Below are positions 2,471-49,871 of a stretch of DNA of 64,000 nucleotides, in pieces (position 1 is the stretch's first letter; each line of letters opens with the position of its first letter). The position numbers and the translations under genes were made by a program. Source of the stretch: Isosphaeraceae bacterium EP7 (GTDB lineage: Bacteria; Planctomycetota; Planctomycetia; Isosphaerales; Isosphaeraceae); NCBI GenBank assembly GCA_038400315.1, contig CP151667.1, positions 248,001-312,000 of the forward strand, in the 5' to 3' direction. The notes under the pieces are model-generated. The model had not been told where the DNA came from. It saw only the letters and a list, made by a program, of their open reading frames with translations, and did no database searches.

Positions 2471-3499
2471 TCACTTTCGAAGGCCGAGGAGGCGGGCACC
2501 CTTCGACTTGGTCTGCTTCAGGAGCCGTTTCAGGTGATAAGGCCGAGCGAACTGGAGCCAGGCGAGGGAGGAGTCGACCCTTCTGGAGATGGGGCCCGTC
2601 TCCTGAAGGAGCAGGGCTTGAGAGGCGATCCAATGGAACATCTGGTCGGGCCCGAAGTTGTCTTCCCAGGCCTGACGGGCCGCCTTGCCCATCGCGACGG
2701 CGTCCGCCTCGCGCTCGCGGAGGATGGCCGGGATGCGGTCGATCTGATCCTCGCGGATGCGCAACGAGCATCGACCCCAGTCGATCCCATCGGGCTCGAC
2801 CCATGCATCCGAGACGATGATCGGGGCCCGCCCCATCTCGAGCGACTCGAAGACCCGGAAGCTCGACGACCCCGTCCCCCGAGGGCAGAGGCTGAACTTG
2901 CTGGCAAGCGTCATCTCGACGTAATACCGCTTCATCTCGTTCAATCGAGCCTCATCCCCCGCGCGGATGGCATCCACGAACGGGCCTGAGGTATCCTCGA
3001 GGAGGATCCGATCGTCCCGGAGCTGGAGCATCCTCAGGCGAACGGCCTTGTTCTTGGCGCTCCCGATGAACGAGGCGAGCCAACCGACGTCGGTCGGCAT
3101 CTGGTCGAGCGGGCAGTAGCGAAGGAACGGGTTCGAGTCGACGAGGTAAGGGCCTGAGCGGGCGACCGACCTGCGGTGCCATCCGCGTTCCATGGAGGCA
3201 TAGATCCCCGGCATGAGCGGCACGATCCGATCCATGCCCGAGATGATGACGCTCTTGTCGCGATACTTGCGGAAGACCGGGTCGCTGCGGATCTGTTCGA
3301 AGTAGGGGCCGCTCGCCGAGTCGTCGCGATGGGATTCGCAGAAGAGAATCAGATCCGCCCGGTCCGGGGCATCGACCGTCTCGTGCTCTCGCCGGCGATC
3401 GGTGGCGGCTGCGGCTTGCAAGACGCGCAGGGGGACCAGATTCGCGTCGCCCTCGGAGCCCGACTTTTCCGCGACGCTGGTCAGATAGATGCGTGCCAT
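2471..3499 (-). CDS. Exostosin-like (GT47-type) glycosyltransferase
   Basis: 342 aa, cytoplasmic, no signal peptide. The C-terminal half carries the segment KFSLCPRGTGSSSFRVFESL (about residues 205-225), then MGRAPIIVSDAWVEP. This matches the conserved exostosin/GT47 pattern in which a CPRG..s.R..E motif is followed by a G..PVIvsD sugar-nucleotide-binding strand. The N-terminal half is variable, as usual. Likely transfers a sugar onto a cell-surface polysaccharide; donor and acceptor cannot be read from the sequence. It stands alone, divergent from the polyketide operon and convergent with no sugar gene. No strong ribosome binding site precedes the ATG. Confidence 0.75.
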   Translation of the reverse strand: MARIYLTSVAEKSGSEGDANLVPLRVLQAAAATDRRREHETVDAPDRADLILFCESHRDDSASGPYFEQIRSDPVFRKYRDKSVIISGMDRIVPLMPGIYASMERGWHRRSVARSGPYLVDSNPFLRYCPLDQMPTDVGWLASFIGSAKNKAVRLRMLQLRDDRILLEDTSGPFVDAIRAGDEARLNEMKRYYVEMTLASKFSLCPRGTGSSSFRVFESLEMGRAPIIVSDAWVEPDGIDWGRCSLRIREDQIDRIPAILREREADAVAMGKAARQAWEDNFGPDQMFHWIASQALLLQETGPISRRVDSSLAWLQFARPYHLKRLLKQTKSKGARLLGLRK

Positions 3500-3823
3500 G
3501 TTGGACTCGAGTTGCCCCTTGGATCAGATCGGCCGACGTGGTCGGGGCCGTCGAGGAGCGTCCCTGCGAGATGACCCGATGCCCACTCCGCGAGGTCTCG
3601 ATTCTCCGATCGCGGGGCGTCCGGTCAATGGGGAGCCGGCCCACGGCGGATGCGGGCGGGTCGAGCGTCCCGGTCTCATGGCCACGCCCGGCGATGAGGT
3701 GCCCTGGCCGTGCGACTGCCGGCCGAGGTGAGGTCATGCTCGACGCCGATGCCCGCCGCGCTTAGAACTAGCGGTGCGTCGGGCGTCGGTTTACGGAGCG
3801 GTGAGATTGGCCTTGGGGGTGGG
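3500..3823. other. Divergent intergenic region, no gene seen
   Basis: About 320 bp between the divergent glycosyltransferase and methyltransferase genes. An open frame runs from 3710 into the methyltransferase, but its extra N-terminus is low-complexity and unlike the family. No convincing promoter boxes, hairpins or small ORFs were recognised here. Confidence 0.5.
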
Positions 3824-4549
3824 ATGGGCCTTGTGAGCGATTTGAGGACCCGGCACAGGACGCCGGAGGTGATGGATCAGCCGGGGCTGGACGGCGCGGC
3901 GCATCGCGAGGCGCTGGAGGCCTTGCGGCGGGTGAACGGGCTGAGCGCCGGGGTCCGGGCGGTCTGGCCCCTGATCCGGGCGTTCTCCGAGGAGCGGCGG
4001 CGCAAGGGCGACTCGCGGCCGGTCCGCGTGCTGGACCTGGCGACCGGCGGCGGAGACTTCCCGGTCCGGCTCTGGAAGCGGGCCCGGAAGGCGGGGGTCG
4101 CCCTGGAGATCGCCGGGTGCGACATGAGCGACCTGGCCGTGGACCACGCCTCGGCGCACGCGTTGAACGCCGGCGCGGCGGTCCGGTTCTTCCGGCATGA
4201 CGTGCTGGCCGACCCGCTGCCCGAGGGGTACGACGTGCTGACCTCGTCGCTCTTCCTGCATCACCTGGACGAGCCCGAGGCGATCGAACTGCTGAGGCGG
4301 ATGCGCCAGGCGGGCGAGCTGGTGCTGGTGGACGACCTGCTGCGATCTCCCGTGGGCTGGCTGCTGGCCTATGCGGGAATCCGGATCCTGTCGCGGTCTA
4401 AGGTGGCGCATGTCGATGGTCCATTGTCGGTCGAGGGGGCGTTCACCTGCGAAGAAGTCAGGGAGTTGGCCCGATTGGCGGGCTGGCCCGAGGCGGACGT
4501 GACCCCGCGCTTCCCTTGCCGGTTCCTGCTGGTCGGGCGGCGGGCATGA
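3824..4549 (+). CDS. Class I SAM-dependent methyltransferase of a type III PKS cluster
   Basis: 241 aa from the ATG at 3824, chosen because the conserved N-terminus RTRHRTPEVMDQPGLD begins just after it. A frame from 3710 adds unconvincing sequence. SAM-binding motif I is VLDLATGGGDFPVRL (about residue 70), with an acidic motif II (IAGCDMSD) and a post-motif LTSSLFLHHLD. It is the first gene of a tight three-gene operon with a flavoprotein (4-bp ATGA overlap) and a type III polyketide synthase. By analogy with Streptomyces srsA-srsB-srsC, it probably methylates a phenolic-lipid or quinone-like product. Confidence 0.85.
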   Translation: MGLVSDLRTRHRTPEVMDQPGLDGAAHREALEALRRVNGLSAGVRAVWPLIRAFSEERRRKGDSRPVRVLDLATGGGDFPVRLWKRARKAGVALEIAGCDMSDLAVDHASAHALNAGAAVRFFRHDVLADPLPEGYDVLTSSLFLHHLDEPEAIELLRRMRQAGELVLVDDLLRSPVGWLLAYAGIRILSRSKVAHVDGPLSVEGAFTCEEVRELARLAGWPEADVTPRFPCRFLLVGRRA

Positions 4550-5670
4550 CCATCGACTCCTATGACGCGGTGGTGGTGGGCGCGGGCCCTGCCGGGTCGA
4601 TGACAGCCCGCGAACTGGCGAGGCGCGGGGCGCGGGTGCTGCTGGTCGACCGGGCGACGTTCCCTCGATCGAAGGTCTGCGGCTGCTGCGTCAATCCTCG
4701 GGCGTTGCATGTGCTGGAACTGGCGGGTCTGGGCGGCCTTGCGGCCAGCCTGGGGGCGGTCCCGCTCACGAGCATGGAGCTTGCCAGCGGCGGGCGGCGT
4801 GCCGTGATCGGGCATCCGCTGGGCGTCGCACTGTCGCGTGAGGCATTCGACCTGGCCTTGATCGAGGCGGCAATGGACGCGGGGGCGAGCTTCGAGCCTG
4901 GGACGACGGCGACACTGCTCCAGCGGGATGATGACGGCGGGCGAGGGGTCAGGCTGCGGCGCGACGGCGTCGAGTGGCGGGTTCGAGGTCGGTTCGTGGT
5001 CTCGGCGACGGGCCTGGCCGATTCGCTGGCCGAGGGAGGCGGGCCTGCGGGGGGGCGCGGGCACCGGCTTGCCGCGGGTTCCAAGATTGGCGCGGGTTGC
5101 GTGGCCCCTCGGGTGCCCGACGGGTACGCGGCCCATCGGATCTGGATGGCCTGCGGGGCCGATGGGTATGTGGGGCTGGTTGCCCTGGAAGACGGCCGGC
5201 TCGACCTGGCCGCCGCGATGCGGCCCGAGGCCGTCCGGGATGCCGGCGGGATCGGTCGGCTGGCGGCCGAGATCCTGGCGACGGCCGGCCTGCCGCCGGT
5301 CCCCGGGGTGGAATCGCTCGCCTGGAAGGGGACGCCCGCGCTGACCCGGACGGCGCATAAGTTGGCCGAAGGGGGCGTCTTCCGGGTGGGGGACGCCGCC
5401 GGCTACGTCGAGCCATTCACCGGCGAGGGCATGGCCTGGGCGCTGGCTGGGGCCCTGAAATTGGCCGAGATCCTGGCCTGCGGAGACCCCTCGACGGCCG
5501 AGCGGGCCTGGGCTGAAGCCCACCGCCGCGAGGTGGGACGGCGGCAGGTTGTCTGCCGGGCGGCGAGGCTGGTCTTGCGCACACCCTGGATGATGCGGGG
5601 TCTGTTGCCTATCCTGAGAGGATGGCCGACCCTGGCAAGGCCGGTGATCCGGGCGATGCACCACGCCTGA
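4546..5670 (+). CDS. FAD-dependent oxidoreductase (geranylgeranyl-reductase/UbiH-like flavoprotein)
   Basis: 374 aa. The start is the ATG overlapping the methyltransferase stop (ATGA); the frame opens upstream at 4516, but the Rossmann fold begins right after this ATG. The dinucleotide-binding motif is DAVVVGAGPAGSMTARELA (residues ~5-24). A mid motif FPRSKVCGCCVNPRALHV and a C-terminal GDAAGYVEPFTGEGMAWAL are the FAD-binding signatures of the PHBH/UbiH-like superfamily. It probably hydroxylates or reduces the polyketide or phenolic intermediate made by the downstream synthase. It is soluble, with a hydrophobic C-terminal region (LPILRGWPTLARPVI). Confidence 0.85.
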   Translation: MTIDSYDAVVVGAGPAGSMTARELARRGARVLLVDRATFPRSKVCGCCVNPRALHVLELAGLGGLAASLGAVPLTSMELASGGRRAVIGHPLGVALSREAFDLALIEAAMDAGASFEPGTTATLLQRDDDGGRGVRLRRDGVEWRVRGRFVVSATGLADSLAEGGGPAGGRGHRLAAGSKIGAGCVAPRVPDGYAAHRIWMACGADGYVGLVALEDGRLDLAAAMRPEAVRDAGGIGRLAAEILATAGLPPVPGVESLAWKGTPALTRTAHKLAEGGVFRVGDAAGYVEPFTGEGMAWALAGALKLAEILACGDPSTAERAWAEAHRREVGRRQVVCRAARLVLRTPWMMRGLLPILRGWPTLARPVIRAMHHA

Positions 5671-5771: not shown

Positions 5772-6878
5772 ATGATGAAAGCCGCGTTGCTCGGCGTGGG
5801 GACGGCAGTCCCTGCGCTTCGGATCAGCCGCTCGGAATCGGTCGATGCCGCCGGAACCCTCTGTGCGGAGACCGACGATCACGCCGGGCTGCTGGAGAGC
5901 CTGTATCGGCAGGCGGGCGTCCAGTCGCGACACATCGTGTTCAGCCGAGAGGAGTTCCGTCGCGTCGTCTATGACGAGGGGGACTTCCAGTCGGCCTTCA
6001 GCTCCAAGGGGAAGGGCGACCTCGGGCCGTCGACCTCCGAGCGGATGACCCGGTACGAGCGCGAGTCGGTGCCGCTGGCGCTGGAGGCCAGCCGGGCGGC
6101 GGTCGCGGAGGCGGGCATTGATGTCGGCTCGATCACGCACGTGGTGACGGTCTCGTGCACCGGGATGTCGGCGCCCGGGATGGACATCGCCCTGATCAAG
6201 GGGCTGGGGTTGCAGGCGACCGTCGAGCGGACGCACGTCGGGTTCATGGGGTGCCATGGGGCTTTGAATGGATTGCGGGTGGCCCGGGGCCTGATCGCGG
6301 CCGAGCCGAACGCACGGGTCCTGCTTTGCGCCGTCGAGCTTTGCAGCCTGCACTATTCGTATGGCTGGAACCCCAAGAAGGTCGTGGGCAACGCCCTCTT
6401 CGCCGACGGTGCCGCGGCCCTGGTGCTTGGGGCCGAATCGGAGAAGCGTGGCGACGGCTGGCGGCTGGCGGCGAACGGTGCCTGCCTGTTCCCGGACTCA
6501 GAGAAGGCGATGGCCTGGAATGTCCGCGACCACGGCTTCGACATGATCCTGTCCTCCCGTGTACCCGGCCTGATCGCCGAGCACCTGCGGCCCTGGCTGG
6601 TCCGCTGGCTGGCCGGGCATGGCCTGCGCATCGAGGACGTCGCGAGCTGGGCGGTCCACCCCGGCGGCCCTCGGGTCCTGACGTGTGTGGAAGAGGCCCT
6701 GGGGCTCCCCGAGGGGGCGACGGAGGTCTCGCGGTCGATCCTGGAGTCGCACGGGAACATGTCGTCGACGACCGTGATCTTCATCATCCAGGAGTTGATG
6801 CGTCGGGGTGCGGGCTTACCCTGCGTCTCGCTCGGGTTCGGGCCCGGGCTGGCGGCCGAGGCGGCCCTTTTCGCCTGA
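5772..6878 (+). CDS. Type III polyketide synthase (chalcone/stilbene-synthase-like)
   Basis: 368 aa from 5772 (an ATG directly follows at 5775); AGGA lies just upstream. The catalytic triad is visible: Cys129 in TVSCTGMSAPG, His296 in WAVHPGGPRV and Asn329 in SHGNMSSTTVIF. LSFGFGPG-like CVSLGFGPGLAAE closes the protein. Type III PKSs condense a starter acyl-CoA with malonyl-CoA; in bacteria a neighbouring methyltransferase and flavoprotein usually mean alkylresorcinol, alkylpyrone or alkylquinone lipids. It is the last gene of the three-gene operon, 101 bp after the flavoprotein. Product and chain length cannot be deduced here. Confidence 0.92.
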   Translation: MMKAALLGVGTAVPALRISRSESVDAAGTLCAETDDHAGLLESLYRQAGVQSRHIVFSREEFRRVVYDEGDFQSAFSSKGKGDLGPSTSERMTRYERESVPLALEASRAAVAEAGIDVGSITHVVTVSCTGMSAPGMDIALIKGLGLQATVERTHVGFMGCHGALNGLRVARGLIAAEPNARVLLCAVELCSLHYSYGWNPKKVVGNALFADGAAALVLGAESEKRGDGWRLAANGACLFPDSEKAMAWNVRDHGFDMILSSRVPGLIAEHLRPWLVRWLAGHGLRIEDVASWAVHPGGPRVLTCVEEALGLPEGATEVSRSILESHGNMSSTTVIFIIQELMRRGAGLPCVSLGFGPGLAAEAALFA

Positions 6879-6888
6879 CCGGAGCAGG

Positions 6889-6905
6889 CCGGAGGATTCC
6901 TTCGG
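6889..6905 (+). terminator. Hairpin just after the polyketide synthase gene
   Basis: CCGGAGG / CCTTCGG pair into a 7-bp stem (one G-U) with loop ATT, 11 bases after the stop. No T-tract follows, so intrinsic termination is uncertain. Confidence 0.35.
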
Positions 6906-7063
6906 CGGGTTGTCGCGTGACCTCGTCCCCCGACCGATCCGCTCGAAGGGATCCGATCCTCGTGCCCCGAAGGAAGGCGACCGGCGATCGCTAAGATTTG
7001 CCGACCCCGCACGTTATCCTGGTAGGCATCCCTTCAGCCGACCTTGGAACGTGAGGTATTGTC

Positions 7064-7978
7064 ATGGCGACTCAGTGGGCGCGTTACCTGGCCGCGTGCG
7101 TCGTGACGATCCTGGGCGGTTGCTCGGAGGTCCAGTACGAATCTTCCTCGGCGAAGATCGCTTTCTCGCCCAGGTCGCCTGCGCCTGTTCAGGCAGAGCG
7201 GGCGGCCACGCCGGCAGCGGACGCGACGACCGCTTCTCCGATGACGCCGGGCGGGGAGGTTCCGCCCGCGATGCCCCGCAAGATCATCTACAACGGATAT
7301 ATCGATCTCGTCGTCGACGACCTCGGCGGCGTCGAGTCCAAACTGATGGCGCTGCTCAAGGGGAGGAACGGCTACGTCTCGGAGACCAATGTCTCCGGTT
7401 CGCCCGGTTCGCAACGCTCCGGCGCGTGGAAGGTCCGCGTGCCGGCCGAGCACTTCACCGAGCTGATGGCCACCATCGCCGGGCTGGGAGAACTGCGGTC
7501 GACCCGCACCGACTCGCAGGACGTGAGCGAGGAGTTCTACGACATCGAGGCCCGGATCGCGGTCAAGAAGCAGGAGGAGAAGCGGCTCCTGAAGATTCTC
7601 GACGAGGCGGCCGGGAAGCTGAAAGACATCCTGGAGGTCGAGAAGGAATTGAGCCGGGTCCGCTCCGAGATCGAGCAGATGGAGGGGAGGCTCCGCTGGC
7701 TCTCCCACAACTCCTCCCTGAGCACGATCAGCCTGACCGTCACCGAGATCAAGGACTATGAGCCGCCGGTGGCGCCGACCTATGCCCAGCAGGTGACGCG
7801 GCGTTTTCAGGCTTCGATGACGAGCGTCGGCGAGTTCCTCTTGCAAGCCTCGCTATTCGTCGTGGGAATCGTCCCCTGGCTGGTCGTGATCATCCCCGCC
7901 GGTGTTCTCGCCTTGCTCGCCTTCCGGCGGTTCAGGGCACGCGTGGCCCTCAGGGCGCCTCATCCCCTTCAGTCGTAG
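7064..7978 (+). CDS. DUF4349-domain lipoprotein
   Basis: 304 aa. The signal sequence ends in a lipobox (ILGGC, Cys21), so the protein is probably lipid-anchored. After a low-complexity linker, the DUF4349 domain starts at PRKIIYNGYIDLVVDDL (about residue 71). It contains the typical DSQDVSEEFYDIEARIAVKKQ segment, then a coiled coil (about 170-215; EVEKELSRVRSEIEQMEGRL). A strong C-terminal membrane helix lies near residues 262-287, followed by a basic tail. The architecture suggests an envelope protein anchored at both ends. The family function is unknown. It is monocistronic by spacing. Confidence 0.82.
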   Translation: MATQWARYLAACVVTILGGCSEVQYESSSAKIAFSPRSPAPVQAERAATPAADATTASPMTPGGEVPPAMPRKIIYNGYIDLVVDDLGGVESKLMALLKGRNGYVSETNVSGSPGSQRSGAWKVRVPAEHFTELMATIAGLGELRSTRTDSQDVSEEFYDIEARIAVKKQEEKRLLKILDEAAGKLKDILEVEKELSRVRSEIEQMEGRLRWLSHNSSLSTISLTVTEIKDYEPPVAPTYAQQVTRRFQASMTSVGEFLLQASLFVVGIVPWLVVIIPAGVLALLAFRRFRARVALRAPHPLQS

Positions 7979-8183
7979 AAGGGACGGGCCGGAGAAGCCT
8001 GAACGAAGGGAAACGGGGTAAGGGCGACGCAGTTGGCCCGAAACCGGGCCAGACGGCCGGCCATCCGAGCAATTCCCGCAGGGTGGGCACCGCCCACCGA
8101 GGGGGCCAGGGGATTGCCCGCTCCCCTGCCCTTGGATCACCGTCTTGTCAAAGAACCCCACATCCCGCGAAGGCCCGCCAGCC

Positions 8184-9278
8184 TCAGCAGGAGGCCAGCG
8201 ACGCCGCGGCCACCCTGCGACGCTCATTCGACTGCCGCAACTTGCGTGAATTGCGAGACTTGGGTTTCAAATCGGTGGTCGCGGCGACCAGCCCGCCCGG
8301 GGCCACCATCGGGCCCAAATCGGTCCCGCCTTGCATCCCGCTCGGGGCCGTCATCGCCGCGGCGAATTTGCCCCGATCGGCCAGGTTTGGCCCCTCGCGT
8401 TGGGTTCGTTCGGCGCGGGCCTCGGGCTGGCTGGCCGGGTCGGCCGGCTCCTGGGTCTGGCCGCTTGCGCGGGCCTTCCCCTTGCTCAGCAGGTCCATCG
8501 CCCACCGCATCCGCCGCAGGCTGGCCGTCTCGTAGCGACGGATCAGGGTCAGCGTCGGGTCGGCCACCACGTCCAGGCCCTGCATCGCCGCCTCGCGCAT
8601 CTCGGCCTCGATCGCGTCGAGGGCCTGCTCCTTCCGATCCATCAGCCGGCCGAGCTGGTTCTCGACCAGCTCGAACCGGAACGCGAGCCCGTCCGGCCCG
8701 TCGGCGTCGTCCAGCGGGCTGGGCAGCTCGCGCAGGTCGGGATCAATCCCCAGCATGTCCAGGGCGAGTGATTGCTGGGCCTCGGTCCACCCGCCGTTGC
8801 AGTCCAGGGCATACCCCAGCATCTTCCAGCGGTCGATCAGCCAGTCGCACCCCGGCGCCGACGACGCCAGCTCCATCGCCGTCTCGGCCGGCCGCGCGGC
8901 CAGCGTACGCGCCTCGCGTGCGATCGAGGCCTTGCGCTCATCCTCCCAGCAATGTTCGGCCCGACGGGCCTTGAAGTCGCGGGCCAGCCGCTCCTCGGCC
9001 CTGCACCGCTCGACCCGCAAACTCTCCACCGCGACCGTCTCGACGAGCACCCCTTCGAACGCATCAACCGGCCCCAGAGCCTCGCGGCACTCCTCGGCCC
9101 GAACCCGCAGCGCCTCGGTCTCGCGCTCAAAAAGCACCACCCCGACCCCGGCCAGCCCATGAACCAGGCTGTTCCGCCGAGACTTCGCCTTCCCCTCGGC
9201 CGTCCTGGGCCCGGTGCTGAGCGCGGCATTGCGGCGATTGGCGTCGATGCGCCTCTGGCTGGTGGCAGTCGTACCCAT
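8184..9278 (-). CDS. Conserved hypothetical protein with N-terminal STGPRT.EGK..SRRN motif
   Basis: 364 aa, very charged, no signal peptide or membrane helix. The N-terminus ANRRNAALSTGPRTAEGKAK followed by SRRNSLVHGLAG is a motif seen at the start of many uncharacterised bacterial proteins, common in planctomycetes. The middle is largely alpha-helical, and the C-terminal third is low-complexity and basic. I do not recognise a function. It lies 236 bp from a hexanucleotide repeat tract and borders the retron-like island. It could be a host gene at the insertion border or part of accessory DNA. Confidence 0.7.
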   Translation of the reverse strand: MGTTATSQRRIDANRRNAALSTGPRTAEGKAKSRRNSLVHGLAGVGVVLFERETEALRVRAEECREALGPVDAFEGVLVETVAVESLRVERCRAEERLARDFKARRAEHCWEDERKASIAREARTLAARPAETAMELASSAPGCDWLIDRWKMLGYALDCNGGWTEAQQSLALDMLGIDPDLRELPSPLDDADGPDGLAFRFELVENQLGRLMDRKEQALDAIEAEMREAAMQGLDVVADPTLTLIRRYETASLRRMRWAMDLLSKGKARASGQTQEPADPASQPEARAERTQREGPNLADRGKFAAAMTAPSGMQGGTDLGPMVAPGGLVAATTDLKPKSRNSRKLRQSNERRRVAAASLASC

Positions 9279-23449: not shown

Positions 23450-25774
23450 TCAGTTCTGCTCGGGCCTGGAAAGCGGCCGCCGTCCGGAGGGACGCTGGGA
23501 TGGGCGAGATGGCTTGGTGGCCTCGTCCGCTTCTCGCTTCTCCTCGTCGCTCATGAGTGTGGTGGGCTGGCTGGAAACGATCTCGCCGGCTTTGAGCTCA
23601 GGCCCGATCTCGATCTGCTCGCCGTCGTCCAGGCCCGTGGTGACCTCTCGCCAGTCGAAGCCGCCGGCGGGATTTTTCACCGCGACGTGGGGCTTACCCT
23701 TGCGGTTGACGACCGACAGGATGGGGATGAGGACCGCGTTTTTTTTCTCGCCAAGCGAGATCTCGGTGCCGGCGGTCATGCCGGGGCGAAGGCCGTCGAG
23801 GCCGGCTTCGAGTTTGACCAGGGTCGTGTAGACCTTCCTGCCGTCCGAGTTGAACGTGCTCGGGTCGGGTCGCGGGGCCACGCTGGCGATAACCGCCGAG
23901 ACGGACTGGCCAGAGTAAGCATCGATTTGGACGAGGACTTTCTGGCCGAGGACGACGCGGTCGACGATCGATTCGGGGACCTTGAAGTTGAGCCGCATGG
24001 GGTCGTCTGGGCGCATGATATTGAAGAGGAGCTGCCGCTCGCGGACCCTTGCACCGACGCCGATCGTCGGACCCTCGCTGATTTTGTTCGGATCATTGGA
24101 GTGGAAGACTCGACCGTCGGCGGGGGCGGTGAGCGTGACCGTCCCGGCCTCCATTCGGGCTTCCGCCTCCTTCTTTTTTCCCTCCGCGGATTCCAGGGCC
24201 GACTTCGCCTCGTCCTCGGTGATTTTCGCCTTGAAGACTTCGAGTTCGAGTTTTTTGACGACCGATCTCTTGCTGTATTTCTGCAGGATATCCAGCTTCG
24301 TCATGGCCCGTTCGAAGCGGGATTTTGCGCGTTCGAGGTTGGGGAGGGCCTCGGCCGCACGATCGTCGAGTTCGAGTTTGGCCAAGAAATCGGTGGGAGT
24401 TGGATCCGTCCTTGCGGCAAGCGCTTTGGCTCCCGCCTGCTGGACTGCTTTTAGAACTTCCAGGCGTTCTTCGGCCAAAGTCAGCGTGGATTTGGCCAGG
24501 GCGACTTCAGCTTTCAAGCCTTCAAGCTCAGCTTTGTAGTTTCCGTCCCGATACTCCACCACGGCGATCTCGGCGATTTCGCGCTCAAGGGTGCTTTTGG
24601 CAACGCCAGAGTCCGCTGTTTTCACTTCGCGAGTCAGGGCGGCAAGGCGTTCCTCGGTGGTCGGATTCACAAGCTTGCCGACGACGTCTCCCTTCTTGAC
24701 GCGCGTCCCATCGGGGACGATCGAGGCGATTGATGAGATGCCCGCGATCGGATTGTCCACCGAGATGGGGGCTGTCGCCTCGACGATTCCTCGGGCTTTC
24801 AGGGTGGGCTGGAGCGTTCCGAGCTTGGCGACTGAGACTTCGGTGTCCGCCTTGGCTTCGGCGCGGGCAACGGAAGGCTCATTCTTCGGGCTTTCAGCCT
24901 GACCCTGCCCGCCGTCGGAAGGGCCGGCGAGGGCGAGGTGGACGACTCCGGTGGCGGTGGCCGTCATGAGGGTGAGGACGGCGGCGGCTTTCAGGGATCG
25001 GAGGATGGTCATGGCGCGGAGGACCTCCCAGGTCAGGGTTGTGGCGAGGCCGAGGGGGAGCGTTCGAGACGCGGCGAAGCGGGTGGCCAGGGTGACGGTG
25101 GATTTCAGCAATGATGGCGGGACAACGGGCAGGTCGACGGCGAGGGGGACGAGCGGGGACAGGCCCCGTCGGATCAACCTCAGTTTCAGGCGATCGCGGG
25201 CACGAGTGAGGCGGCTCTTGACGGTGCCGATGGGCCAGCCCAGGTGACGGGCGGCCTGCTCGTGGGTCTGGCCTTCGAGGTCGCAGAGGACGAGCGGAGC
25301 CCGATCGCGGTCGGGGAGGCGGGCGAGCTCGGCGTGCAGGACTTGGGATTGCTCGGCGAGGGTGGCCTCGCGGGTCGGATCGGAATAGGTCCTGGCCTCG
25401 GTGGCGCGGGCTTCCAGGCGACGGCGGCGGCCGTTGGCGGAACGGGCGCAGGTGGCGGTCCGGTGGGCGACTTCGTGGATCCAGGGGGCGAGCGAGTCCT
25501 TGATCCAGAGGCGATGGGCGCGGCGGGCCAGGACGAGGAAGGTGGCCTGGAAGGCGTCGTGGGCATCGGGCTCGTTGCCCAGGACCGCGCGGCAGGTGCG
25601 CAGGACCATCGGGCCGTGGCGGTCGACGAGCGCCGCGAAGGCGAGCTCGGCAGGGTCGCCGCGCGAGGTGCAGAAATGCTCCAGGAGCTGGCCGTCGGTC
25701 AGCCCCCGGGTGGTGCCCAGGGTCAGCAGGGTGAGGAGCTGCCTGGATGTGGCCGGGTTGTCGCCGATTGCCAA
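23450..25774 (-). CDS. Fusion of an ECF sigma factor and an HlyD-like periplasmic adaptor
   Basis: 774 aa from a TTG start (GGGAGGG upstream). Residues ~20-210 are a complete ECF sigma factor: region 2 in DAHDAFQATFLVLARRAHRL and region 4 in LAEQSQVLHAELARLPDRDR with GWPIGTVKSRLTRARDRL. Near residues 255-285 a membrane helix (LKAAAVLTLMTATATGVVHL) leads to an RND/HlyD adaptor. This comprises a lipoyl half (VSVAKLGTLQPTLKARGIVE), a long coiled-coil hairpin (about 350-520), the second lipoyl half (VTLTAPADGRVFHSND) and beta-barrel/proximal domains. A sigma factor anchored to its own extracytoplasmic domain could act as a transmembrane sensor. No efflux pump gene is adjacent. Confidence 0.88.
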   Translation of the reverse strand: MAIGDNPATSRQLLTLLTLGTTRGLTDGQLLEHFCTSRGDPAELAFAALVDRHGPMVLRTCRAVLGNEPDAHDAFQATFLVLARRAHRLWIKDSLAPWIHEVAHRTATCARSANGRRRRLEARATEARTYSDPTREATLAEQSQVLHAELARLPDRDRAPLVLCDLEGQTHEQAARHLGWPIGTVKSRLTRARDRLKLRLIRRGLSPLVPLAVDLPVVPPSLLKSTVTLATRFAASRTLPLGLATTLTWEVLRAMTILRSLKAAAVLTLMTATATGVVHLALAGPSDGGQGQAESPKNEPSVARAEAKADTEVSVAKLGTLQPTLKARGIVEATAPISVDNPIAGISSIASIVPDGTRVKKGDVVGKLVNPTTEERLAALTREVKTADSGVAKSTLEREIAEIAVVEYRDGNYKAELEGLKAEVALAKSTLTLAEERLEVLKAVQQAGAKALAARTDPTPTDFLAKLELDDRAAEALPNLERAKSRFERAMTKLDILQKYSKRSVVKKLELEVFKAKITEDEAKSALESAEGKKKEAEARMEAGTVTLTAPADGRVFHSNDPNKISEGPTIGVGARVRERQLLFNIMRPDDPMRLNFKVPESIVDRVVLGQKVLVQIDAYSGQSVSAVIASVAPRPDPSTFNSDGRKVYTTLVKLEAGLDGLRPGMTAGTEISLGEKKNAVLIPILSVVNRKGKPHVAVKNPAGGFDWREVTTGLDDGEQIEIGPELKAGEIVSSQPTTLMSDEEKREADEATKPSRPSQRPSGRRPLSRPEQN

Positions 25775-25879
25775 GGGGTTGGCCCTCCCTCCCGCCGCGA
25801 TGTCCCGAACCGATGCAACCTATGGCATGCCGAGGGCCGGCGGTTCCAAGAATCCGGGAGGGGGGGCGAGATTTCGAGA

Positions 25880-46338: not shown

Positions 46339-49300
46339 TCAACGCCAGTCCAGAGAACCGATCCCGGTGATGCCGAGCTTGTCGAGATCCAGGCGGCTGA
46401 TCTTACCGGTGGCGGGAGTGGCTGTGAAAAGTTCCATATGTCTCGGCGAGGAGGAGACTTTCTGGCGTCCGAGCATCCAGGTGACCGTCTTGCCGTCGGG
46501 GGACCAGCAGGGCATCGAGTGAAGGTCGAACTCGTGACTGCCCTGCCTCAGGTCGTGGATGGCCGCGAGATCCTGGGGCGGACTGCCGTCGAGGGTCTGG
46601 ACGACGGCCAGGTGTTGCCGACGGCCGTCGATGTGGCGGACCTCGGTGAAGGCGAGGCGTTTGCCATCCGTTGAAAAGCGGGCGTTGATGCTGTCGTGGT
46701 CGGGCGGGCCGATGCTGAAGGGCTTGCGGTCGGTACCGTCGGGCTTGACCAGGGAAAGCCGACGAAGGGGATAGGTCCCTTTTTGTTCATAGGTCAGCTT
46801 CGGATTGGACTCGATGACGGCGAACGATTGGCCGTCAGGAGACCAATCGCTGACGATGTCGGTTTCGGAGAGCGGCAAGGGGCGAATCTTGCCGTTGCTC
46901 GCGTCGATGAGGAAATTCTCGACCGAGTTCTCATCGCGCCTTCGGTAAGCAACGAGTTGAGTGCCATCGGGTGACCAGGCCATGAGGGTCGCGTTCTCGG
47001 TGAGTTTCTTCCTGCCGCCCTCGGCCGAGAAGACCCACGACGAGGCGGAGCGATGGACACCTTCCACGGCGGGATCCAGGATGCTGAATGCCAGGCGGGA
47101 ACCATCGGGAGACACCCGGCCGATCTCGATGAATTCGTCCTTGCCCAGGGTGAGCAGTGTCTCGGGGTCAGAGCCGTCGAGGTCCATCGCCTCGATGGCC
47201 GATGTGCCGGGGCGGTCGGCGCGGGTGGTTCCGAAGAGGATGAGCTTGCCACTGTAAGAGACACGAGGCTCGGAGAGGGGCGGGGCCTTGACGGTCGGTG
47301 CGGGTGGGTCGTCGTTCAGGAGATTGAGTGGGAGTGGTTCAGGGACACGTCTGGTTTGAGGCGGGAGTCGGTCGGCGAGTCCTCCGGCCAGGCCGAGGAG
47401 GGCCCAGGCTTTTGTGGTCGGAATCGTCTCGCGTTCGATCCAGGCCAGTGCGGTCGCCTGTTCACCGATCTCGGCCTGTGCCTTGGCCAGGTAGCCGAAG
47501 GCATCCCGGGTTGGGTTCCAGTACTCCGACGTTTGCGCAACGACGGAGGCTTCTCCCCTGATCCTGGTGAAAAGCTCGTCGGCCTCGCGTTGGTGCCCTT
47601 CCATGGCAAGGCCTTTGGCGAGGTCGACCCGGGCCCGAATTCGTACGGATGGATCTGAGGCGGCGTCGGCGACCCTTCGTGCGTGTTCAAAGTCGCCGGT
47701 CTTGATGAGGGCCTTGACGACCGGCTCGACGGACCATTTTTTCAAGTCATCGTTCTTGACGCGTTCCAGGGTAGCGATGGCCAGCTTGGGGTCACCGCGG
47801 AACGCTTGGGCCGATGCGAGGTCGACCCAGGCTTGGTCGAGTAGTTTCGACGGGATACGCATGCCCTGGATGATTTCCTGGGCCCTTGCGTCATCGCCGG
47901 CTCGGGCCACGCCGGCCGCGAGCGAGATCATCGCCCAGGTCCGATCGCCCCACTCGAGTCCATCACCGTCAATCACGCGGGGAATCGATCGAGCGGCCTT
48001 AACCGCGCGTTCCAGGGTGATCGCGGCGTTCGGGTCTTTGAGGCGGGACTGAGCCGCGGCAACGGCCAGCAACGCACGGGGGCGTTCATTGCGAAAGTAG
48101 GAATCCTCGTCCTGCTTCAAGTCCGGCTGATCGTCATACAACGCTTCGACGGCCCGCATGGCACCCGAGAGATCGTCACGGTCTGCGCGGAGTGAAGCAA
48201 TCGTGGCAAGGACCTCGGCTCGACTTCGTGCCTCCTTGATCGCGGCGGCAGTCCGCAGCGCGCCGTCCAGGTCGCCTGCGACGGCCATGTTTGCAACAAC
48301 GGATACAAGGGAGTTCATGCGATCGTCGTTCTTGCGTATTTCGTTCACGAGCTGGAAGGCTCGCGCACCACGCCCAAGGCCAGCCAGGTAGCCGGCGACA
48401 TCGCGTCGGCGCTGGTCGCTTTCCGACTCGTTGGCGTCGCGGATGACCTGCTCGATGGTGGATTCGAGGGGCTTTTCGAGGCCGGCCCTCCCCTGGATGC
48501 GGGCGAGCTCGCAGAGGATGAAAATCCGATCGTCGAGGTCCGTGATCGCGGGAATGATGGCTATCAGTCGATTCAAGGCATCATCGGTATCGGCGCGGAG
48601 CTTGCCGATGTCTTCGGCCCTGGCGGCCGTCGGCGGCTTGGTCGCAGGTTGTAATTGACGAAGCTCGGTCGGGGGGGAGGCAAGGGCCATGTAGGAGAAC
48701 GTACCACCGAGCGCCAAGGTCATCACCGCAACGGTGATGAGTGTCGTCTGGAGGCCGGCGATTCGGGTTCCCCAGTCGGCCAGAGCGGCAACACGGGACG
48801 AGATGGCTCCGGCAGGCAGGGAGCCGGAGAGGGCGAGACTCGCAGTGTGAGCGGCCTTGGCAGCGAGGCCTGCGGGGAGGATGAGGCCGGCGGGCAGGGC
48901 GCGAGCGGGATCGTCGGGGTTGATGGGGGACAGGCCACGGCGGGCGAGGCGGGCGGCGAGTCGGGCTCGGCCCCGGGCGAGGCGGCTGGCCAGGGTTCCG
49001 GCGGGCCAGCCCAGGTGCCGGGCAGCCTCGGCGCGGGTGCGGCCTTCGAGGTCGCAGAGGACGATCGCGGATCGCTGGGATTCGGGCAGGCGGGCCAGCT
49101 CGATGTCGAGCAGGGCGGCGAGGTCGTGGGTAGGGGCGGCCTCTGTGGCGGAGTTGGGTCGAGTCCAACTTGCCAGGCGGTGCTCGCGGGCCTTGCGGCG
49201 TGCGGCCGTGGTGCGGGCCTTGCGTGCGGTTCGGGTGGCGACCCCGTGGAGCCAGCCCCCGACGGACTCGCGTGGGGAGACGCTGGCGGCCTTGCGGGCC

Positions 49301-49521
49301 AGGACGAGGAAGGCGGCCTGAAACGCGTCTTCGGCGTCGTGGTGGTCGCCCAGGACACGGCGGCAGACGCCCCAGACCATCGGCCCGTGGCGCTCCAGGA
49401 GGCGCTCGAAGGCGAACTCATCGCGGCTGGCGACGAACTGTTCCAGCAGCCGGCCGTCGGACAGGCCGCCGACGGCCCCGGAGAAGAACAGGGTTCGCAT
49501 GTCTCGCTGGATCGTATCCAA
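46339..49521 (-). CDS. Fusion of an ECF sigma factor with TPR-like and PD40/TolB-type beta-propeller domains
   Basis: 1060 aa from a TTG start with GGAGG six bases upstream (the ATG at 49500 is an alternative). Residues ~20-200 are an ECF sigma factor (HHDAEDAFQAAFLVLARKAA; GWPAGTLASRLARGRARLAA). A membrane helix near 255-280 (TTLITVAVMTLALGGTFSYM) separates it from a long extracytoplasmic part. That part comprises helical repeats (about 300-720, ARIQGRAGLEKPLESTIEQV and similar units, including AGDLDGALRTAAAIKEARSR) and a C-terminal PD40 propeller (LMAWSPDGTQLVAYRRRDEN; DIVSDWSPDGQSFAVIESNP). A tethered sensor-sigma protein is the likely arrangement. Confidence 0.9.
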   Translation of the reverse strand: MDTIQRDMRTLFFSGAVGGLSDGRLLEQFVASRDEFAFERLLERHGPMVWGVCRRVLGDHHDAEDAFQAAFLVLARKAASVSPRESVGGWLHGVATRTARKARTTAARRKAREHRLASWTRPNSATEAAPTHDLAALLDIELARLPESQRSAIVLCDLEGRTRAEAARHLGWPAGTLASRLARGRARLAARLARRGLSPINPDDPARALPAGLILPAGLAAKAAHTASLALSGSLPAGAISSRVAALADWGTRIAGLQTTLITVAVMTLALGGTFSYMALASPPTELRQLQPATKPPTAARAEDIGKLRADTDDALNRLIAIIPAITDLDDRIFILCELARIQGRAGLEKPLESTIEQVIRDANESESDQRRRDVAGYLAGLGRGARAFQLVNEIRKNDDRMNSLVSVVANMAVAGDLDGALRTAAAIKEARSRAEVLATIASLRADRDDLSGAMRAVEALYDDQPDLKQDEDSYFRNERPRALLAVAAAQSRLKDPNAAITLERAVKAARSIPRVIDGDGLEWGDRTWAMISLAAGVARAGDDARAQEIIQGMRIPSKLLDQAWVDLASAQAFRGDPKLAIATLERVKNDDLKKWSVEPVVKALIKTGDFEHARRVADAASDPSVRIRARVDLAKGLAMEGHQREADELFTRIRGEASVVAQTSEYWNPTRDAFGYLAKAQAEIGEQATALAWIERETIPTTKAWALLGLAGGLADRLPPQTRRVPEPLPLNLLNDDPPAPTVKAPPLSEPRVSYSGKLILFGTTRADRPGTSAIEAMDLDGSDPETLLTLGKDEFIEIGRVSPDGSRLAFSILDPAVEGVHRSASSWVFSAEGGRKKLTENATLMAWSPDGTQLVAYRRRDENSVENFLIDASNGKIRPLPLSETDIVSDWSPDGQSFAVIESNPKLTYEQKGTYPLRRLSLVKPDGTDRKPFSIGPPDHDSINARFSTDGKRLAFTEVRHIDGRRQHLAVVQTLDGSPPQDLAAIHDLRQGSHEFDLHSMPCWSPDGKTVTWMLGRQKVSSSPRHMELFTATPATGKISRLDLDKLGITGIGSLDWR

Positions 49522-49871
49522 AGGGTGCCTCCCCCCTACAACTGACGGACGCGGCTCGGACGATCTTACCGCACCGGGAGACTTGCCCGTCGAGCCCGGT
49601 TTTGATCCCGAAATTCTCGGATCGATGTCTCAGGGAATGGACGCATTCGGCCGTTGGGTGGGGAAGTTCGGCAATTCGGGCGGATGGTGGGTGAATCGGG
49701 CGGCGGCGCCTATGATTTCAACGCTGAGGAATCCGGCCGACGTTGGCCCGGCGCCTTGGGGAGGACGCTCCCCGGGACGCATGTTCGAGGCGGAGATGGT
49801 CGCTTCACGCGGGGGATCGAACCATTGACGGGGTATCTCAGGTCGCCGAGAAGGCCTGTATTCTGCTGACG
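49522..49871. other. Divergent promoter region between the sigma-PD40 gene and the two-component pair
   Basis: 350 bp. Open frames here are shadows or the uncertain N-terminus of the sensor kinase (in-frame TTG at 49743). No near-consensus promoter or hairpin stands out. Confidence 0.4.

Follow-up and report, generated by a model that had tools for sequence, protein, structure and literature searches.

A conserved fusion of an ECF57-like sigma factor with a pump-adaptor domain in Isosphaeraceae, a candidate envelope-controlled regulator

Domain architecture of the fusion gene

The window, by which we mean the whole 64,000-nucleotide stretch of DNA analyzed here, comes from a 7.2-Mb genome of the family Isosphaeraceae and carries on its minus strand, at positions 25774-23450, a frame that is open over 774 codons from a TTG start. 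The start position is common to the aligned fusions described below, and the relatives mostly use GTG there. Codon-position GC is coding-like throughout the frame, including the junction, with its weakest stretch at residues 431-516. In the encoded protein of 774 amino acids, Pfam places Sigma70_r2 at residues 49-112 (positions 25439-25630, containing Cys61), Sigma70_r4_2 at residues 144-196 (25187-25345, containing Cys164), and HlyD_3 at residues 547-665, all over their cut-offs (37.2 against 22.2 for HlyD_3), and the NCBIfam model RND_mfp likewise exceeds its own (101.9 against 94.9). The preliminary description of this locus as a sigma factor and an HlyD adaptor in one polypeptide is confirmed by the presence of these domains, above cut-off, in a single frame.

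All further elements of the protein are encoded on the same strand. The sigma regions are followed by a conserved linker (residues 205-258; 25001-25162), in which L222 and M255 are each present in 94% of 50 aligned sequences (31 fusions and 19 paralogs from the window's own genome), and by a putative membrane helix (residues 260-281; 24932-24997). Next come the first half of a barrel-sandwich (lipoyl-like) domain, delimited by alignment (approximately residues 335-380; 24635-24772; motif PDGTRVKKGD at 354-363), an alpha-helical hairpin (residues 390-542; 24149-24607), and the second lipoyl half with the beta-barrel/membrane-proximal region (residues 547-743; 23546-24136), where HlyD_3 and RND_mfp match. 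Barrel-sandwich, hairpin, and beta-barrel sequence, the parts that define the adaptor family, are all present. The hairpin limits come from two AlphaFold models, which were built from 5 and 3 sequences and are poor (pTM 0.28 and 0.33); our conclusions draw on them for the position of the hairpin turn alone, which lies at residues 455-459 in both, within an insert (residues 454-471; 24362-24415) that stands in place of the pump-adaptor tip motif.

The single membrane helix posited in the preliminary description finds better support in the relatives than in the window's own copy. A candidate hydrophobic segment was found at the same position in 30 of the 31 fusions and in all 19 paralogs (49 of the 50 sequences), but in the window's protein it is only marginally hydrophobic, with a Kyte-Doolittle value of 1.42 against a threshold of 1.4 that was our own choice; the AlphaFold helix at residues 242-281 is of low confidence. 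Ten flanking genes were scanned with Pfam and matched families of sugar and alcohol metabolism, RbsD/FucU, DUF1569, glyoxalase, and DUF1501, one gene having no match; neither a pump nor an anti-sigma factor was among them, and the pump and channel genes that mark a pump adaptor do not accompany the window's fusion. The earlier statement that no pump or anti-sigma factor lies alongside holds for these ten genes, whereas in a relative, G070, the fusion adjoins an RND pump.

Conservation of the fusion in two families

Full-length fusions, defined as matches extending from query residue 13 or earlier through residue 730 or beyond, were detected in 13 of the 45 Isosphaeraceae genomes searched. A profile search of 297 genomes of the class revealed full-length fusions in at least 14 of 36 members of the family and at least 4 of 261 other genomes, counts that are lower bounds because scoring was limited to the top three candidates of each genome. 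The four genomes outside Isosphaeraceae all belong to a second family (f3), and in a fifth f3 genome (G180, locus L142) Pfam finds the sigma and adaptor domains in one frame. Following the frame through related genomes and counting similar fusions, as the preliminary description had proposed, thus gave a positive answer in both respects. The outcome that it had named as fatal, two separate genes joined by a sequencing or assembly error, is vanishingly improbable: in one related contig (G017, locus L043) the frame is indeed broken into two, but the full-length relatives, which come from two families and in several cases from few-contig assemblies, refute an error.

Variants of the arrangement were also observed. 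Tandem pairs of fusions occur in G001, G002 (which contains the same contig as Aquisphaera insulae NZ_JAALJH010000057.1), G021, and G016. The adaptor halves of the tandem fusions at L086:286-2457 and 2607-4886 (plus strand) differ, one grouping with RND-type and the other with MacA-type adaptors. Five short fusions, L099:7136-8848 (minus), L100:6979-8694 (minus), L098:7048-8856 (plus), L143:6754-8601 (minus), and L144:7781-9544 (minus), stop after the barrel-sandwich and have no beta-barrel region.

Type and origin of the adaptor half

A profile search of solved structures returned an RND adaptor first (6vej, 2e-38) and MacA next (6e-37), a single-sequence search matched MacA weakly (1e-4), and the top Foldseek match of the first, poor AlphaFold model was MacA. 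The nearest free-standing adaptor in the window's own genome is encoded in an operon that also specifies an OEP protein, an ABC ATPase, and a MacB permease. The same operon order was recognized by similarity in five relatives (L145, L146, L147, L148, and L150), with some of the neighbors in L145, L146, and L148 confirmed by Pfam, and two further free adaptors (L151 and L152) adjoin OEP or MacB genes. The fused module is therefore of the MacA type, and the assignment to an HlyD/RND type in the preliminary description has to be revised: the nearest free-standing relatives are MacA-type adaptors in MacB/TolC-like operons.

Trees were used to assess how often the two halves were joined. In a maximum-likelihood tree of 50 sigma halves, a single clade of the HlyD-fused ones was rejected (p-AU 0.0001), as was a single fused clade when 31 fused and 14 free adaptor domains, 45 in all, were placed in one tree (p-AU 4e-93); the adaptor tree rerun without four long branches gave the same pattern, with 8 changes between the fused and free states. 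The split frame of L043, the fusions of L092 and L096, which are cut by contig ends, and L142 of G180 were left out of the trees. The fused domains of f3 were sister to a free RND adaptor from the same G070 gene cluster (97/95), in genus g19 two short fusions paired as sisters with the MacA of that genus (95/94), and L090 and three short fusions joined the MacA of g20 (100/100; the fusions 97/95). The main fusion clade was separate (100/100) and enclosed two free adaptors, which are perhaps later splits. If pump adaptors are ancestral, the trees imply at least four captures, a number that we infer because the tests do not distinguish gains from losses. The repeated joinings suggest that pump parts were turned into sensors acting directly on transcription.

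Replacement of the hairpin tip

The hairpin tip of these adaptors presumably docks to TolC. All 8 adaptors adjoining pump or channel genes have the tip G-[YF]-[VIT]-[ST] and no insert. In the main-clade fusions the tip is replaced by 14-19 extra residues without exception (16 of 16), and both free adaptors nested in that clade are also tip-less, with inserts in the same size range. The window's protein has an 18-residue insert in place of the conserved tip, and a motif frequent among the inserts is T-P-x-[DE]-[IV]-x-A-x-[LV]-[DE]-[LI]-x-[DE]. The tip was lost in L090, L098, L143, and L144 as well; it was kept, or nearly so, in L093, L099, and L100, so a fused adaptor need not be tip-less. A signature motif in adaptor hairpins, and the action of adaptors on outer-membrane channel gates, have been reviewed (PMC8277102).

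These observations bear on whether the fused adaptor is still a working pump adaptor, serving a pump of the MacB or RND type together with an outer-membrane channel, with the sigma half reporting pump assembly or occupancy. Such a role would suit the three fusions that retain the tip motif, the ABC exporter gene directly upstream of the fusion on the same strand in G032 (L095), and the cluster in G070 (L153:7492-19501), where the fusion shares one stretch with an RND pump, the free adaptor of that pump, and two OEP genes, and where this free adaptor and the fused domain are sisters in the tree. We nevertheless consider it unlikely, since the tip is replaced throughout the window's clade, the beta-barrel region is missing from the five short forms, and no pump gene lies beside the window's fusion, the same genome having an intact MacA operon elsewhere.

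Selection and gene neighborhoods

Across eight close pairs, dN/dS was 0.10-0.30 for the sigma half and 0.19-0.67 for the adaptor half, compared with 0.23 and 0.27 for two pairs of pump MacA. Both halves are under purifying selection, the adaptor half less so. The faster evolution of the adaptor half (dN/dS up to 0.67, and above the two pump MacA pairs in at least five of the eight pairs) is what speaks for regarding it as a decaying passenger, a drifting C-terminal half behind an unregulated sigma factor. We hold this to be very improbable, as dN/dS stays below 1 in all eight pairs, the frame is open despite great divergence (approximately 40% identity), captures occurred repeatedly, and the tip insert retains a recognizable motif.

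The 21 fusion-locus neighborhoods had no pump, protease, or anti-sigma gene in common. In two sister genomes an HtrA-like gene (Trypsin_2 plus PDZ; L088:5825-7000 and L089:5987-7054, minus strand), with no obvious signal peptide, lies directly downstream of the tandem fusions, and in two other genomes (L099 and L100) such a gene is located approximately 5 kb from the fusion. HtrA was considered as a protease partner and rejected, as the HtrA genes of the window's own genome are not enriched near these sigma factors; a Trypsin_2 gene falls within 5 kb at one locus only, that of two adjacent sigma genes out of 19, and for that reason we claim no protease partner. In two genomes of genus g13, a gene with a weak match to a DisA-type diadenylate cyclase was noted upstream of sigma-adaptor and adaptor genes (L096:3077-4399; L094:12858-14336, minus strand).

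The sigma half and its paralogs

According to a published account of ECF sigma factors, ECF57 members have a conserved pair of cysteines, through which sigma2 and sigma4 are proposed to be linked, together with long C-terminal extensions that contain WD40-like repeats, and they are discussed as being activated through protein interaction (PMC8999054). The window's protein has ECF-type sigma regions 2 and 4 with one conserved cysteine in each, Cys61 and Cys164 being invariant in all 50 sequences, whereas the WD40-like repeats, a prevalent but non-universal trait of the group, are missing and HlyD is found instead. A search for the zinc anti-sigma motif H-x3-C-x2-C, the one motif searched for, found it in none of the 50. 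Because of the two invariant cysteines and the long extension, we call the sigma half ECF57-like, an assignment by shared features and not by the group's own classification model.

The window's own genome encodes approximately 20 paralogs whose similarity to the fusion is confined to the sigma half, linker, and hydrophobic segment. Among the 19 analyzed with Pfam, the C-terminal parts matched WD40 or PD40 propellers, CarboxypepD_reg with thioredoxin or AhpC (two proteins), DUF1559, OEP of the TolC family (L064), and Poly_export (two neighbors in L063, one of them with SLBB), and several had no match past the sigma regions. Of the 45 family genomes, 20 have a full-length sigma-Poly_export fusion and 3 (G000, G026, and G029) have a full-length sigma-OEP fusion. 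The sigma-OEP gene (L064:4040-6145, plus strand; C1:6348039-6350144 of the window's own genome) is preceded by the promoter GCAACC-N17-CATTAC and has full-length relatives in G026 and G029. The adjoining sigma-Poly_export genes lie at L063:4071-5699 and 6211-8247 (plus strand; C1 near 1895000-1899000), the first being the one counted in 20 family genomes; a free Poly_export-like protein of the same genome shows 57% identity across the domain fused in L063. The window itself contains a second sigma factor of this kind at 46342-49629 (minus strand), a 1096-codon frame with C-terminal PD40 propeller repeats and, as judged by eye, a long repeat region between the sigma and PD40 parts.

OEP, Poly_export/SLBB, HlyD, and thioredoxins of this type are domains known outside the cytoplasm. 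Their presence at the same place in sister proteins is our main argument that the C-terminal half of the window's protein is likewise outside; we argue from the sister proteins because the window's own helix is weak. That weakness is compatible with a different topology, in which the C-terminal half would be a cytoplasmic protein-interaction or scaffold module and the hydrophobic stretch would be a helix that is buried, a view put forward for ECF57 members with WD40 repeats; the suggested activation of ECF57 members by protein interaction also fits (PMC8999054). For Tuwongella immobilis, detergent-soluble fractions were reported to contain some ECF sigma factors, a finding that favors neither topology (PMC8567305). 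With HlyD, OEP, Poly_export/SLBB, and thioredoxin/AhpC at one position in the sister proteins and the segment conserved in 49 of 50 sequences, a cytoplasmic scaffold seems to us more doubtful still than a working pump adaptor.

A shared candidate promoter upstream of the fusion genes

A putative ECF-type promoter was identified at 25819-25847 on the minus strand, with GGAACC (25842-25847), a 17-base spacer, and CATAGG (25819-25824). Its -35 element fits the family consensus, but the -10 element deviates from the CATTAC of the relatives, and the window's genome has no exact match to GGAACC-N17-CATTAC. This consensus was found at 10 or more of 12 positions, with the 17-base spacer, upstream of 15 of the 18 long MacA-type fusions (set T1, in which close genome pairs are not independent), 8 of them perfect, and at the same stringency before 3 of the 19 paralogs, including the sigma-OEP gene, and none of the 14 free adaptors. 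Because the consensus was itself derived, by visual inspection, from these upstream sequences, chance values for the T1 matches are circular, and the genome count against the reversed pattern is the fairer test: the 13 genomes scanned contained 13 exact matches versus 5 for the reversed pattern. Eight of the 13 are located 36-54 bases before a T1 fusion, four lie inside open frames, and one precedes another gene resembling this kind of sigma factor.

The four f3 fusions share a different sequence, GGAGAAC-N16-CTCTA[CT], and no match at 12 or more of 13 positions was found before the neighboring channel genes of f3. A pump regulon found no support either: at 10 or more of 12 positions, no match to the main consensus lay ahead of MacA operons in a location adjoining a gene start. 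The textbook rule AAC-N15-18-CGT was also tried and gave no enrichment. The occurrence of an ECF-type promoter before many of the fusion genes suggests autoregulation.

A proposed mode of action

On balance, we think it probable that the protein combines regulator and sensor in one chain: an ECF57-type sigma factor tethered to the membrane, with a pump adaptor put to new use as its sensor. This reading builds on the observed fusion and its conservation, on the several independent captures, on tip loss in the main clade, on the promoter that the genes have in common, and on purifying selection in both halves; the weak helix of the window's copy, the lack of a conserved gene partner, the deviating -10 element of the window, and the tips kept in L093, L099, and L100 count against it. 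Control of the sigma factor by an envelope domain, as the preliminary description had it, is therefore retained as the best reading of a fusion that is real and conserved in relatives.

The sigma half would reside in the cytoplasm, tethered by the conserved linker and one membrane helix, and the MacA-type adaptor, minus its channel-docking tip, would act as the sensor module outside the cytoplasmic membrane. A signal at the adaptor, such as a bound pump part, substrate, or lipid, or a change of oligomer, would free or re-orient the sigma half, and the freed sigma factor would drive its own promoter first. For this step we prefer release by stepwise proteolysis in the manner of IutY, which by analogy appears quite possible, over activation by conformation alone, which we find rather doubtful.

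More tentatively, planctomycetes may repeatedly fuse ECF57-type sigma factors to spare envelope-export parts (pump adaptors, a TolC-like channel, and Wza-like polysaccharide-export proteins), each spare copy being a decoy that reads its parent machine and conveys the state to RNA polymerase with neither an anti-sigma factor nor a kinase. If true, this would be a signaling route in which a machine is watched through its own copy. Many planctomycete ECF57-type sigma factors have huge extensions; here the extension is recognizable and its donor can be named as a pump adaptor from within the lineage, which, together with a candidate promoter, makes the signal, the need for cleavage, and the targets testable.

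Comparison with known systems

The preliminary description considered the arrangement undescribed. This stands insofar as a pump adaptor differs from the described WD40-like extensions, but long extensions as such are on record for ECF57 (PMC8999054). The literature searched contained no paper combining extracytoplasmic function, HlyD, and planctomycetes, and a single paper in it named ECF57; the novelty of the sigma-adaptor fusion is provisional because the primary ECF classification papers were outside the reach of that search.

In its adaptor half, the protein resembles MacA of MacAB-TolC by the barrel-sandwich, alpha hairpin, and beta-barrel and by its profile match to MacA structures; unlike MacA, it has an N-terminal sigma factor, a replaced hairpin tip, and no adjoining MacB or TolC gene. 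HlyD is also joined to a regulatory domain in the GAF-HlyD proteins reported near secondary SecA loci of planctomycetes and other bacteria (PMC4452313), but that domain is GAF rather than a sigma factor, and the locus differs. SCO4117 (ECF52), ECF48, and ECF53 of Actinobacteria combine a sigma factor with a C-terminal membrane helix and an outer domain, and proteolysis has been proposed for them (PMC8999054); they differ in having a zinc-finger anti-sigma part, joined in SCO4117 by a carbohydrate-binding domain, and not an adaptor. In IutY of Pseudomonas putida (ECF243), as in the fusions, a sigma factor and a membrane-spanning control region form a single protein, from which the sigma factor is freed by Prc and RseP (PMC8999054). 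IutY has an anti-sigma domain, whereas the fusions are devoid of the H-x3-C-x2-C motif and their outer part is a pump adaptor. The sigma2-sigma4 arrangement, the cysteine pair, and the long C-terminal extension are shared with ECF57, whose described extensions are WD40-like repeats, while that of the window's protein is a pump adaptor.
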